Of a DNA stretch of 64,000 nt, positions 48,145-54,227 are shown one piece after another. Where the stretch lies: contig NZ_CP035310.1 of the NCBI RefSeq assembly GCF_004114695.1, forward strand, positions 2,649,501-2,713,500. The letters are read 5' to 3'. Each line of letters starts with the position of its first letter. Position 1 is the first letter of the stretch. Below the pieces are notes generated by a model. That model worked only from the letters and a program-made list of their open reading frames with translations, searched no databases and was not told where the DNA came from. The stretch comes from Erythrobacter sp. HKB08 (GTDB taxonomy: Bacteria; Pseudomonadota; Alphaproteobacteria; Sphingomonadales; Sphingomonadaceae). The position numbers and the translations under genes were made by a program.

Positions 48145-48489
48145 TTACATCACCTTGTCGGGCCGCTGGTCGTGCGAGTGGCGCGACTGCTTGCCGAAGT
48201 GCCGGTCGAGCCGCTGGGCGAGCGTCATCGCCGCCTTGCGCGCGGCATCGTCGACGGTGGAGCCGGTCTCCGTCACCCCGATCGGCTTGCCCGAACGCGG
48301 CCGCGCCTCGATGGTGCAGGCCTTGTCGTCATGTCCGTGGGTGTGGCGATGCTCGTCATGCACATGGATCTCGAGGCGGGTCAGCCGATCCTCGAACCGC
48401 CCGAGCTTCTCGCGCACCTTGCCCTCGATCCGCTCCGCGACGTTTTCCGTACCCATGACGGTGTGATCGGAATTGAACTGGACCTGCAT
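48145..48489 (-). CDS. HPF/RaiA family ribosome-associated protein
   Basis: 114 residues in the short ribosome-hibernation fold: QVQFNSDHTVMGTENVAERIEGKVREKLGRFEDRLTRLEIHVHDEH and KPIGVTETGSTVDDAARKAAMTLAQRLDRHFGK. It is more divergent than canonical HPF and has a His-rich loop (EHRHTHGHDD) and tail, so a stress or metal-related variant is possible. GAGGAGAG lies before ATG 48489. Confidence 0.82.
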   Translation of the reverse strand: MQVQFNSDHTVMGTENVAERIEGKVREKLGRFEDRLTRLEIHVHDEHRHTHGHDDKACTIEARPRSGKPIGVTETGSTVDDAARKAAMTLAQRLDRHFGKQSRHSHDQRPDKVM

Positions 48490-48580
48490 GATGCGCTCTC
48501 CTCTTTTGTTGTCTCACCTACCGACATGGGGAGTGTCGGGCCGGATGGAAGGGTAATTCTGTATGCCCTTGAAGCGATGC

Positions 48581-49159
48581 TCAAGCTCCGCCCCGCTCAC
48601 GTCCGAACCGCTTGGCCCAATCCACCCGTGCCAGCAGCACCAGCCCGACCAGCATCGCCACTTGCAGCGCGATGCCGAGCGGGCTGCTGAACTGTTCGCG
48701 GAACGCTTCGCCAAGGCTCGTCGAGGCGAGGCCCGCAGCGGTCAGGCCGTAGATCGTGTAGCTGACGATGCGCCCTGCGAAGAAGGCGGCGGTGAAGGGC
48801 AGCAGCGGTAGCCGCGCCAGCCCCGCGGCCTCGAACAGCTGGGCCGAGGGAACCGGCGAGAGCGCGAACAGGCCGAGCGCGAGCACCGTATTGCGCCTGC
48901 GTTGCTCCAGCGCCTCGCGCGCAGCCTCGAGGTTCGCCTGTATCCGCTCGGTCAGGAAGCGCTCGCCGAACAGCCGCGTCGCATGGCCGAGCAGGAACCT
49001 CCCCAGCGCCGCCGCCAGCGCTCCGACGATTACCAGCAACGCCAGCTTGAGATCGCCATTCAGCGCATAGAGCGCGATGATCGACCACGTCGGCGGTCCG
49101 AATGCCGGCATCAGGTTGATACCCAGCACGAGCGCAAAGAAGATCAGGTAGTCTGCCAT
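48581..49159 (-). CDS. DedA/VTT-like small membrane protein, function unknown
   Basis: 192 residues with about five helices: residues 3-25 (YLIFFALVLGINLMPAFGPPTW), 35-60 (ALLVIVGALAAALGRFLLG), 92-115, 125-145 (AAFFAGRIVSYTIYGLTAAG) and 168-182. The PAFGPPTW and LSPVPSAQLFEAAGLARL turns are reminiscent of SNARE-associated/DedA proteins with their re-entrant loops. Function inferred only at fold level. Confidence 0.65.
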   Translation of the reverse strand: MADYLIFFALVLGINLMPAFGPPTWSIIALYALNGDLKLALLVIVGALAAALGRFLLGHATRLFGERFLTERIQANLEAAREALEQRRRNTVLALGLFALSPVPSAQLFEAAGLARLPLLPFTAAFFAGRIVSYTIYGLTAAGLASTSLGEAFREQFSSPLGIALQVAMLVGLVLLARVDWAKRFGRERGGA

Positions 49160-49181
49160 CTCGCCCCTGCCGTCGGCCCCC

Positions 49182-49586
49182 TCACCCGGTGCCGAGCGCC
49201 TTGTCGGCGAGGATCGTGTCCATGTACTCGCGCACTTCGACGATCTTGCCGTCCTTCATCCGGAACACGAAGCAATAGTCGTTGTCGTAGCGCTCGCCCT
49301 CGACCGTCTCGGCATCGCCTTTCGCCAGCACGACGACATGGTCGCCATCGGCAAGGATTAGCTCGGGAATATTGAGGTATGGCCCCGCAAAGCGGGCAAA
49401 CAGCGGCCCGACGAGATCGCGCTCGACATTGGCGAGGCCCTTCGCGTGCTTCGACCAGGCGGACGAGCCCATCACCCACCATTCGATATCCTCGTCGAAC
49501 AGCGGCATGAAATGCGAGGGATCGCCATGGCGCAGCCCCTCGAAGGCCTTGGTGATGAGCGAGCGGTTGGTCTCGGTCCGGGTCAC
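49182..49586 (-). CDS. NTF2-like (SnoaL-type) protein
   Basis: 134 residues with the NTF2 cone fold pattern: LITKAFEGLRHGDPSHFMPLFDEDIEWWVMG, GDHVVVLAKGDAET, YDNDYCFVFRMKDGKIVEVREYMDT. No early ATG; GTG 49586 (GTG-ACC) follows AGGAGGA 11 bases upstream and gives the natural start. Upstream in-frame ATG 49652 would precede the ribosome site. Ligand unknown. Confidence 0.75.
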   Translation of the reverse strand: MTRTETNRSLITKAFEGLRHGDPSHFMPLFDEDIEWWVMGSSAWSKHAKGLANVERDLVGPLFARFAGPYLNIPELILADGDHVVVLAKGDAETVEGERYDNDYCFVFRMKDGKIVEVREYMDTILADKALGTG

Positions 49587-49690
49587 GGGGCGCAATTCCT
49601 CCTGTCCGTTGGGACAGTGAAGCTGAGCCGCAATTTGCGCAAGGGCGAGCACGGTGGTGCGAGACAGCCGGGCGCGCTAGGCCCGGGTCC

Positions 49691-50149
49691 ATGAAGGAAC
49701 CCGTCACCATCCTCGTCGACGCCGATGCCTGCCCGGTGAAGGAGGAAATCTACCGCGTGGCCGACCGCCACAAGGCGCATGTCCGCGTGGTCAGCAACAG
49801 CCCCTTCCGCGTGCCGGTGAGCGAGCGGGTAAAGCGCGTGGTGGTCTCGGACGGCTTCGACGCGGCGGACGACTGGATTGCGGAGAACGCGGGGCCGCGC
49901 AGCGTAGTCATCACCGCCGACATCCTGCTGGCCGAACGCTGCCTCAAGGCGGGCGCGACGGTACTGCGCCACGACGGCAAGCCCTTCGATGCCGCCAGCA
50001 TCGGCAGCGCCATAGCCACCCGCGCGATCATGGAAGACCTGCGCGCCGGGATGGACGGGCTCGGTGGAGGCCCGCCGCCGTTCAGCAAGGCGGACCGGTC
50101 GAACTTCCTGCAGGCGCTGGACCGGGTGCTTGTTGGGTTCACCAGATGA
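49691..50149 (+). CDS. YaiI/YqxD family UPF0178 protein
   Basis: 152-residue UPF0178 protein with PIN-like/NYN fold features: TILVDADACPVKEEIYRVADRH, VVVSDGFDAADDWIAENAGP, SVVITADILLAERCLKAGATVLRHDGKPF, and SNFLQALDRVL. Nuclease activity suggested by the DADACP motif but not proven. There is no SD; a TAGGCC box lies 13 bases before the ATG. It is the last GC-rich gene before the AT-richer island. Confidence 0.9.
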   Translation: MKEPVTILVDADACPVKEEIYRVADRHKAHVRVVSNSPFRVPVSERVKRVVVSDGFDAADDWIAENAGPRSVVITADILLAERCLKAGATVLRHDGKPFDAASIGSAIATRAIMEDLRAGMDGLGGGPPPFSKADRSNFLQALDRVLVGFTR

Positions 50150-50235: not shown

Positions 50236-51858
50236 CTAGGCGTATCGTTCTTCGAGTATTTGTCCTAAATCTCGATGCTCATATTGAGCAACGTGATCCA
50301 TTTCGTGAAAGCAAACCAAGAGGCGATGTCCTTGCATATCGCCGAACCCCATCGGTCCACCCTCAACAATAGAATTTGTCAAAGCTTCAGCGACAAGCGC
50401 ACCATTATCATGTTGCTGCGCATCGCGCCGAGCTCGGAGGACAATCTCCAGAACATACGCGATGAATCGATCACTAATCTTGTCGGAACTCAATAGCTCA
50501 CGAATGCAAATGCCAACGGAGAGGATTGCCGATTTGATGATGTGGCCATTCTCATGTGTGGCTGCTGGACTATCAATGATAAGCGCGGGACTGTCCGCCT
50601 GTAGGCATTCGAAAAGCCGGATCCAATCCCTAAGATTACTAACAATTTTATATATCAGGAAATGCGCGAAATTAGGGAATTCTGAATTTTCATCATAGTC
50701 TGGGTGATCAGTGTCGATAATTTCGACCAGCCTTCGAGTTAGAATATTCATGTAGTAAAGCCACATGTGCCATTCTATTCCATCTCTAGCCGAAGATCTG
50801 ATCATTATGTCAAAGAATTGTATAACAAGGAATAGGTCGTCGGACCTTTTCATTTTGTCGAAATCTCTCGGCTTGGAATTCAGCAGCCTAAGGTATTTTT
50901 CGTCTTCGAGACTGTCGAAAGCAAACTCGCCAATCGGCCGATAAACTTCTCGCTCCTCCGCTTTCTTCGAGTCTGTAAAAAGGTATGCGATTATCTGATT
51001 GTCTGAATCGATGTCGTAAAAACACAGCCCTAGACTGTCGTTCTCCCAAATCTCTTGGCGGAGTGGAGCATCGATTCCACTGATGAAGAAAGTGAATGCT
51101 CTATCGGAGAACTCATAGGAATCGGACAAATCCGATTCCAGAATTCTCAGGGCGAACCTCGTTCTCTCCTGCGCGACAAAACGCACAAACTCATCATTCG
51201 ACATCAATCGCCTTATGATCTGACGTGCATTCTTCTGCTTAATATCCTCGTCTGGAAATGCAGTTATGAACGGCTGTGCGCATGACAGCATCGCTCCCTT
51301 TATCGCCTCCCACACCCTGCCTCGCAGCTTGGCACTCGTGACCGAACTCTCATGCTGTGCGAAGAGGTATTCGAGCTCCGGACTGCGCTTTCCGTGGTGA
51401 CGAACCGCATCGATGGTTCGCTGCATCCAATGCCCGCGGTTCGCGCGAAGTGCGATTGCGTCGAAATGAGGCTCAATTAGCTCGACAACTTCCCCATATT
51501 TTCTGTCACTGATCAACCGTTCAACCAAGTCGCGGAATAGGCGATAGTTGCGGATAGAAATTTTTCTAGAACTATAGAGTGCGCCGAGAAACGATAGCCA
51601 AAGCATTGTGAGCCCGAAGGCAATTTCGTTGGACAACCGAGAGCTTGGTTTGATCTCAAAGCCTGAGCAAACGCTGCTGTTGCAATTCGGCGCCACCCTA
51701 TCGAACAGGAGAAAGTACGTAATTGCGCCCAAGAACACTGCTGATGGAGCCCACAGCTTCCATCCCAGCAATCGGAACCGCAGCTTCGCTACAGGCGAAG
51801 CGATCGTATAAAGTCCAACCAAAAGGGTAAGGCAGGTGATGAAGCCATCTATACTCAT
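50236..51858 (-). CDS. unrecognised membrane protein in an AT-richer island
   Basis: 540 residues of no known family. Three hydrophobic helices lie in the first 100 residues (about 5-25, 37-54 and 80-97: FITCLTLLVGLYTIASP, APSAVFLGAITYFLLFD, EIAFGLTMLWLSFLGAL), and the remaining 440 are soluble, helix-rich and charged. Motifs noted but not assigned: a possible HExxH-like HEMDH near residue 516 and HENGH near 440. Its base composition and codon use (many AT-ending codons, stretches such as acaattttatatatc) are unlike all neighbours, suggesting recent acquisition. It has no evident ribosome site. It may be a single-gene defence or stress module. Confidence 0.7.
   Translation of the reverse strand: MSIDGFITCLTLLVGLYTIASPVAKLRFRLLGWKLWAPSAVFLGAITYFLLFDRVAPNCNSSVCSGFEIKPSSRLSNEIAFGLTMLWLSFLGALYSSRKISIRNYRLFRDLVERLISDRKYGEVVELIEPHFDAIALRANRGHWMQRTIDAVRHHGKRSPELEYLFAQHESSVTSAKLRGRVWEAIKGAMLSCAQPFITAFPDEDIKQKNARQIIRRLMSNDEFVRFVAQERTRFALRILESDLSDSYEFSDRAFTFFISGIDAPLRQEIWENDSLGLCFYDIDSDNQIIAYLFTDSKKAEEREVYRPIGEFAFDSLEDEKYLRLLNSKPRDFDKMKRSDDLFLVIQFFDIMIRSSARDGIEWHMWLYYMNILTRRLVEIIDTDHPDYDENSEFPNFAHFLIYKIVSNLRDWIRLFECLQADSPALIIDSPAATHENGHIIKSAILSVGICIRELLSSDKISDRFIAYVLEIVLRARRDAQQHDNGALVAEALTNSIVEGGPMGFGDMQGHRLLVCFHEMDHVAQYEHRDLGQILEERYA

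Positions 51859-51892: not shown

Positions 51893-54227
<2,335 letters not shown>

Follow-up and report, generated by a model that had tools for sequence, protein, structure and literature searches.

What is the function of the AT-rich gene that lies by itself between thiC and yaiI in Erythrobacter sp. HKB08, and how did it arrive there? Here, we analysed a window of 64,000 nucleotides (positions 2,649,501-2,713,500 of the single contig of 2,746,849 bases that constitutes this genome), and we propose, with a probability of about 0.52, that the gene encodes a single-gene membrane anti-phage protein, transferred into a defence hotspot 3' of thiC, which would sense phage through a helical superhelix and compromise the membrane. 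The locus is defined by the following three genes.

49691-50149, plus strand: yaiI-like gene, convergent, one border of the cargo site (ORF reading).
50236-51858, minus strand: the gene under study, a full-length relative of phrog_13820 (ORF reading, profile search, composition).
51893-53785, minus strand: thiC, the other border of the cargo site (match to PDB ThiC chains, E 7e-290).

A first-pass annotation of this DNA described a gene that stands alone between yaiI and thiC and differs in base composition from every neighbour, and both observations are borne out. The thiC and yaiI genes are convergent, and the gene under study is the only one between them; the 49691-50149 gene, which gave no match in a PDB sequence search, is presumed to be yaiI, a name that we adopt from that annotation. 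The open reading frame at 50236-51858 is intact, with 540 codons, an ATG start and no internal stops. Its GC content is 0.479 and its GC3 0.529, against 0.62-0.68 and 0.82-0.89, respectively, in the five neighbouring genes measured. The three 1-kb segments that lie mostly over it (GC 0.473-0.514) are the most AT-rich of the 64 kb; the segment overlapping its end has a GC content of 0.581, and all the remaining ones fall between 0.610 and 0.693. A degenerate or spurious reading frame is ruled out by the existence of stop-free, full-length homologues, and by the purifying selection to which the relatives are subject (dN/dS 0.10-0.15, Nei-Gojobori). These ratios were computed on relatives, the window copy not being among them, and come from five informative pairs, each with a finite dS and 50 or more synonymous differences (dS exceeds 1 in two of them); other pairs gave 0.13 and 0.29 from few differences, and one pair was saturated.

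The claim that the encoded protein matches nothing has to be abandoned, because residues 6-522 align with positions 12-482 of the 505 positions of phrog_13820 (PHROGs v4, E 3.2e-25), and there are many unnamed relatives besides. The protein belongs to this group along its full length, but the group itself is nameless and has no assigned function, and the three phage records that we found, all from Klebsiella, are ~21% identical. None of the libraries searched gives the family a name. Firstly, the best Pfam match of the window protein was DUF2996 at E 0.18, under the curated cut-off, and NCBIfam gave no match. Secondly, none of the PADLOC-DB 2.0.0 families matched it up to an E value limit of 5, a limit at which the HMMER filters drop most weak matches. 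Thirdly, no PDB sequence was matched by an HMM of a 15-row family alignment.

Relatives are spread over mobile elements of distant hosts. By tblastn, 3 of 50,697 phage records matched, all of them from Klebsiella, together with 135 of 72,556 plasmid records, of which 114 were from Klebsiella, with others from rhizobia, Sphingomonas and Acidisarcina; among the viral_contigs, searched with six protein queries, relatives were found for the Klebsiella query alone (three contigs). When an Elusimicrobia homologue served as the query, 134 plasmid records matched, including three haloarchaeal genera; the Halobaculum match has an E value of 2e-23 across 289 residues, and the whole protein can be aligned with the family. 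Genome scans added homologues in one Elusimicrobia and one Acidobacteria metagenome-assembled genome. Within the bacterial family of the window, on the other hand, the gene is rare: 4 of 298 genomes match, one of them by a C-terminal piece. Members were found in 2 of 59 relatives scanned, in 3 of 398 genomes of a phylum sample, and in 7 of 396 genomes of an order sample; these samples overlap, and each count includes the source genome. Two of the order matches (G873 and G917) are confined to model positions 31-164, at places where the listed reading frames are unrelated or of low complexity; we regard them as spurious, which reduces the order count to 5 of 396. An ordinary housekeeping gene is ruled out, since 294 of the 298 family genomes and both sampled congeners gave no match; the situation in which all close relatives carry the gene at the same place, which the first-pass annotation had named as the one that would undo its idea, is therefore not what we found. 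Its suggestion that the gene was acquired by horizontal transfer is well supported by the odd composition, the rarity in the family, the absence from the congeners, the relatives on phage-plasmids and conjugative plasmids, and the variable content of the site.

This last point became clear from the interval between thiC and yaiI in relatives. In G157, the two genes are adjacent without cargo, with 29 bases between the thiC stop and the aligned end of yaiI. A yaiI gene lay within the fetched stretch in 25 of 72 loci, at 47 to 7,235 bases from the aligned end of thiC. The G064 locus (L095) has the same arrangement as the window and holds a different gene: thiC, a 559-aa gene with a GC content of 0.49, and yaiI, the middle gene being AbiU/AIPR-like (E 2e-71). 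In G066, thiC is followed by a 657-aa gene with a GC content of 0.44. The congeners G001 and G002 have different genes adjoining or near thiC (GC 0.54 and 0.56), and one of the G002 genes at the site reads as a sulfatase. Other cargo could be named: DRT6/DRT4 in L116, NsnA/PD-T4-2 in L114, a ThsA-like gene in L149 and a caspase in L124. In G008 (L058, 5560-7210), an NsnB-like AAA ATPase gene (E 1e-30) and a second, 253-aa gene (GC 0.46-0.48) are located beside yaiI, beyond other genes, and may form a two-gene defence module. The gene order around yaiI in the window (48145-50149; membrane and NTF2-like genes, by reading) is unlike that of G008, and this difference indicates that rearrangement, in addition to the loading of cargo, has affected the region.

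To what extent is the 3' side of thiC special? The GC counts were restricted to 60 loci (L110-L169), because the larger set of 71 loci includes four (L095, L096, L098 and L099) that had been chosen for AT-rich DNA beside yaiI. The 60 loci were taken in order from the thiC similarity list; we passed over those already fetched, those close to the end of a contig and, by hand, a few others (for example, G216, G165, G022, G101, G150, G091 and G067). Low-GC reading frames were defined as those of at least 100 aa with a GC content at most that of thiC minus 0.10; downstream of thiC, 38 loci had a total of 62, versus 11 spread over 5 loci on the upstream side. We also compared the 500-base stretch of lowest GC within 5 kb on either side with thiC: the median difference was -0.155 for the downstream flank and -0.057 for the upstream one (Wilcoxon p 2e-8), and dips beyond -0.12 were present downstream in 40 loci and upstream in 6.

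The nature of this cargo was assessed with PADLOC. For the largest reading frame per locus in the 71 loci, 207 models matched downstream, versus one model in one protein upstream, a comparison that is unmatched for low GC and in which the 12 low-GC upstream reading frames do not form a separate set. The 74 low-GC downstream reading frames matched 326 PADLOC models and 38 Pfam families, and the matches listed include GmrSD_N, Fic, AIPR, SIR2_2, caspase, N6_N4_Mtase and HEPN; the cargo further includes an IS1595 transposase. It should be noted that model counts are inflated by redundant models and exceed the numbers of proteins. Counted by protein, 3 of the 10 largest downstream reading frames of ten early-fetched loci had a PADLOC match, one of them weak (1.6e-6), and 7 had none, in a batch in which L095, L096 and L098 had been chosen for their AT-rich look beside yaiI; the count was 9 of 10 in a batch hand-picked, and hence biased, from the low-GC reading frames. 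Taken with the GC counts, these matches suggest that, in this bacterial family, the DNA 3' of thiC is a hotspot whose cargo is AT-rich, varies between genomes and is to a good extent defence-like; there is strong evidence that the window gene is cargo of this defence-rich hotspot. The place of the gene, in a hotspot where known defence genes are exchanged, and that of its relatives beside phoH, where one plasmid has an AbiH-family gene instead (see below), are those of a candidate defence gene. Defence genes that stand alone in hotspots are already known, and the first-pass annotation had suggested a defence or stress module here; the location of the gene agrees with a defence role.

The way in which cargo reaches the site may be reflected in duplicated ends of thiC. 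In 14 of the 72 loci, part of the 3' end of thiC is repeated downstream of the gene, as against 2 loci in which an internal segment of thiC gave hits. The second copy is at least 100 bases long in six loci (L096, L113, L116, L120, L144 and L155; 112-236 bases aligned), and in four of them (L113, L116, L144 and L155) a low-GC reading frame begins within ~150 bases beyond it. From these duplicated ends and the reading frames that soon follow them, cargo seems to enter by repeated exchange at the end of thiC. When the same insertion-marking repeat was sought in the window, no second copy of the thiC 3' end was present downstream of thiC.

The anatomy of the window protein, as predicted, comprises the following parts, all encoded on the minus strand.

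51787-51846, minus strand: membrane helix 1, about residues 5-24 (hydropathy; passes the threshold in the window copy).
51703-51756, minus strand: membrane helix 2, about residues 35-52 (below the threshold in the window copy; predicted in 11 of the 13 other rows with an N-terminus).
51625-51702, minus strand: loop joining helix 2 to helix 3, residues 53-78, containing two cysteines (probably outside, by the positive-inside rule).
51571-51624, minus strand: membrane helix 3, about residues 79-96 (below the threshold in the window copy; predicted in 12 of the 13 other rows with an N-terminus).
50239-51246, minus strand: all-helical C-terminal domain, residues 205-540 (AlphaFold2, pLDDT 84.3, pTM 0.87).
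50752-51069, minus strand: most conserved core of the family, residues 264-369 (15-row alignment).

The three N-terminal helices that had been described earlier are thus recovered as predictions, the first from the window copy and the other two from the rest of the family. Basic residues after helix 1 and helix 3 would place the N-terminus and the two-cysteine loop outside and the remainder of the protein in the cytosol. The invariant residues of the alignment (E269, A300, G310, F349, M352, W366, L367 and Y369) all fall within this predicted cytosolic part; S264, L266, N273 and N287 are nearly invariant. Conservation also decides the fate of two motifs. Metal binding by the HEMDH and HENGH segments, raised as a possibility in the first-pass annotation, is not supported, as neither is a family motif: HEMDH is present in the window row alone, and HENG(H/N) in 4 of the 15 rows, the three besides the window row reading HENGN. 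A HEPN-like R-x5-H at residues 358-364 was dropped, the arginine being unconserved in the alignment by reading.

The AlphaFold2 model of the whole protein, built from four sequences, is mediocre (pLDDT 65.8, with residues 1-105 and 135-208 below 50), and that of domain 205-540 alone is good and wholly helical. Foldseek returned no match at E 0.001 or better for the whole model against PDB and BFVD or for the domain against PDB, a result that is not proof of a new fold. The best Foldseek match of the domain was the N-terminal domain of ALPK1 (E 0.035). The best VIA match was to designed helical repeats (Z 11.6, rmsd 3.3, 170 residues), with HEAT/ARM proteins at Z 8-10, values of a size that, as the tool warns, can be generic for helical proteins. 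We tentatively read the predicted cytosolic part as a HEAT-like helical superhelix without a recognisable enzyme. A likeness to HEAT/ARM-like repeat proteins would lie in this predicted superhelix and its VIA scores; the difference lies in the lack of a Foldseek match at the above threshold.

Based on the location of the gene, we assign it with moderate confidence to the defence genes, and its product is probably a virus-defence protein. The three predicted helices would anchor it in the inner membrane with the N-terminus outside, and the superhelix of ~340 residues would serve as a sensor or an oligomerisation platform. Binding of a phage product might then rearrange the complex, so that the membrane is compromised and infection stops; the membrane-damage step is the weak part of this proposal. 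The anti-phage reading is weakened by the lack of any PADLOC match to the window protein, by the fact that the cargo of the thiC site is not all known defence, and by equivocal neighbour counts on plasmids (see below).

The main rival explanation derives from the elements on which the relatives reside. On pKPHS1-like elements of ~110 kb, which we take to be SSU5-type phage-plasmids, the family gene is divergent from phoH; on an E. coli plasmid, it adjoins a glutaredoxin gene. The flank on that side of phoH was read in seven of the 596 records from a phoH search, in PLSDB gene tables that are incomplete: p47733 carries there an AbiH-family gene on the strand of phoH, and the other six have three small genes, a 305-aa gene, insertion-sequence genes (two records), no gene, and a 203-aa gene. 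About 120 enterobacterial plasmid records have the family gene, versus 480 with phoH at a minimum of 80% identity, counts from two separate searches, unmatched record by record, that suggest that about a quarter of the sampled phoH-bearing enterobacterial phage-plasmids carry it. A membrane protein as an accessory gene of phage-plasmids would suit superinfection exclusion, in which the entry of phage DNA, a receptor or an injection step is blocked and the cell is unharmed, and the absence of a constant partner gene from the loci read agrees with this. However, an internal sensor would better account for the large conserved cytosolic part, with its invariant residues in 269-369, and for the shortness of the predicted outside loop. 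Furthermore, the family spans proteobacteria to haloarchaea, between which phage entry differs. We therefore consider superinfection exclusion rather unlikely.

A sensor of stress or of a metabolite, unrelated to phage and spread by transfer, is improbable. Such a role would be consistent with a window protein that matches no enzyme or defence model, with thiC-site cargo that is not exclusively known defence, and with equivocal neighbour counts on eight plasmids: 48 neighbours matched 212 PADLOC models, but 48 further genes from the same plasmids, a group II intron reverse transcriptase among them, also matched 85. The rarity and patchiness of the gene and its company at the thiC hotspot, on the other hand, argue against it. 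About as improbable is a function for the mobile element itself (plasmid entry exclusion, stabilisation or transfer control) with the chromosomal copy as a stranded passenger, since, despite relatives on conjugative plasmids and, in G013 and G789, copies with type IV secretion genes nearby (by reading the ORFs), 121 of the 135 matching plasmid records are typed as non-mobilizable, and chromosomal copies occur not only at thiC in the window, but also in G739, of another family of the order, where a 483-aa copy with a GC content of 0.33 (L181, 1444-2895; L185, 9072-10523) lies with one small reading frame between genes that read as purB and purC.

How would the proposed single-gene membrane anti-phage protein relate to known systems? 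Single-gene abortive-infection proteins of the AbiU/AIPR type are comparable in position, an AbiU-like gene holding the thiC-yaiI place in L095, but the window protein matches neither AIPR nor AbiU. Membrane-acting single-gene defence proteins exist as a general class, and the window protein would resemble them in its predicted membrane anchor and cytosolic domain, its single gene and its status as mobile cargo; on the other hand, PADLOC revealed no common sequence family with this class. If the proposal is true, an undescribed bacterial and archaeal family joins the membrane arm of prokaryotic immunity, and its suggested presence on about a quarter of the sampled enterobacterial phage-plasmids of the phoH type would matter for competition between phages. 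It is tempting, and rather doubtful, to go further and see here an unnamed immune family common to bacteria and archaea, in which one gene, encoding a membrane-anchored superhelix, senses phage and acts on the membrane without an enzyme, a second messenger or a fixed partner, and which travels on phage-plasmids, conjugative elements and an undescribed thiC hotspot.

Independent of the window gene, the short interval 3' of thiC, often flanked by two core genes, is a place to look for more genes that are still undescribed. It looks like a defence-cargo hotspot so far undescribed, as judged from the titles listed in a search of open-access literature; none of these titles dealt with the gene, with a hotspot at thiC/yaiI or with Sphingomonadaceae defence islands, and the text match of PMC10121019 to 'thiC' was the word 'thicker'.

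The neighbourhoods on other plasmids contain further defence-like genes. On one plasmid, the family gene follows a UPF0489 gene, and a Shedu-domain gene lies ~8 kb off. The UPF0489 gene recurs at this place in G584, with 72% identity; the two UPF0489 genes (L008, 9198-10004; L052, 8551-9357) stand directly before the family gene and are possible partners of it in that branch. Elsewhere, an Abi-family gene is ~4 kb away from the family gene, or a DNA methyltransferase gene adjoins it. Finally, a 193-aa gene on a Vibrio plasmid (L101, 7941-8522), with a weak local match to the family (E 3e-4), is perhaps a family fragment; it adjoins type I restriction genes, and KwaB-like and Hhe genes lie 5-7 kb off.
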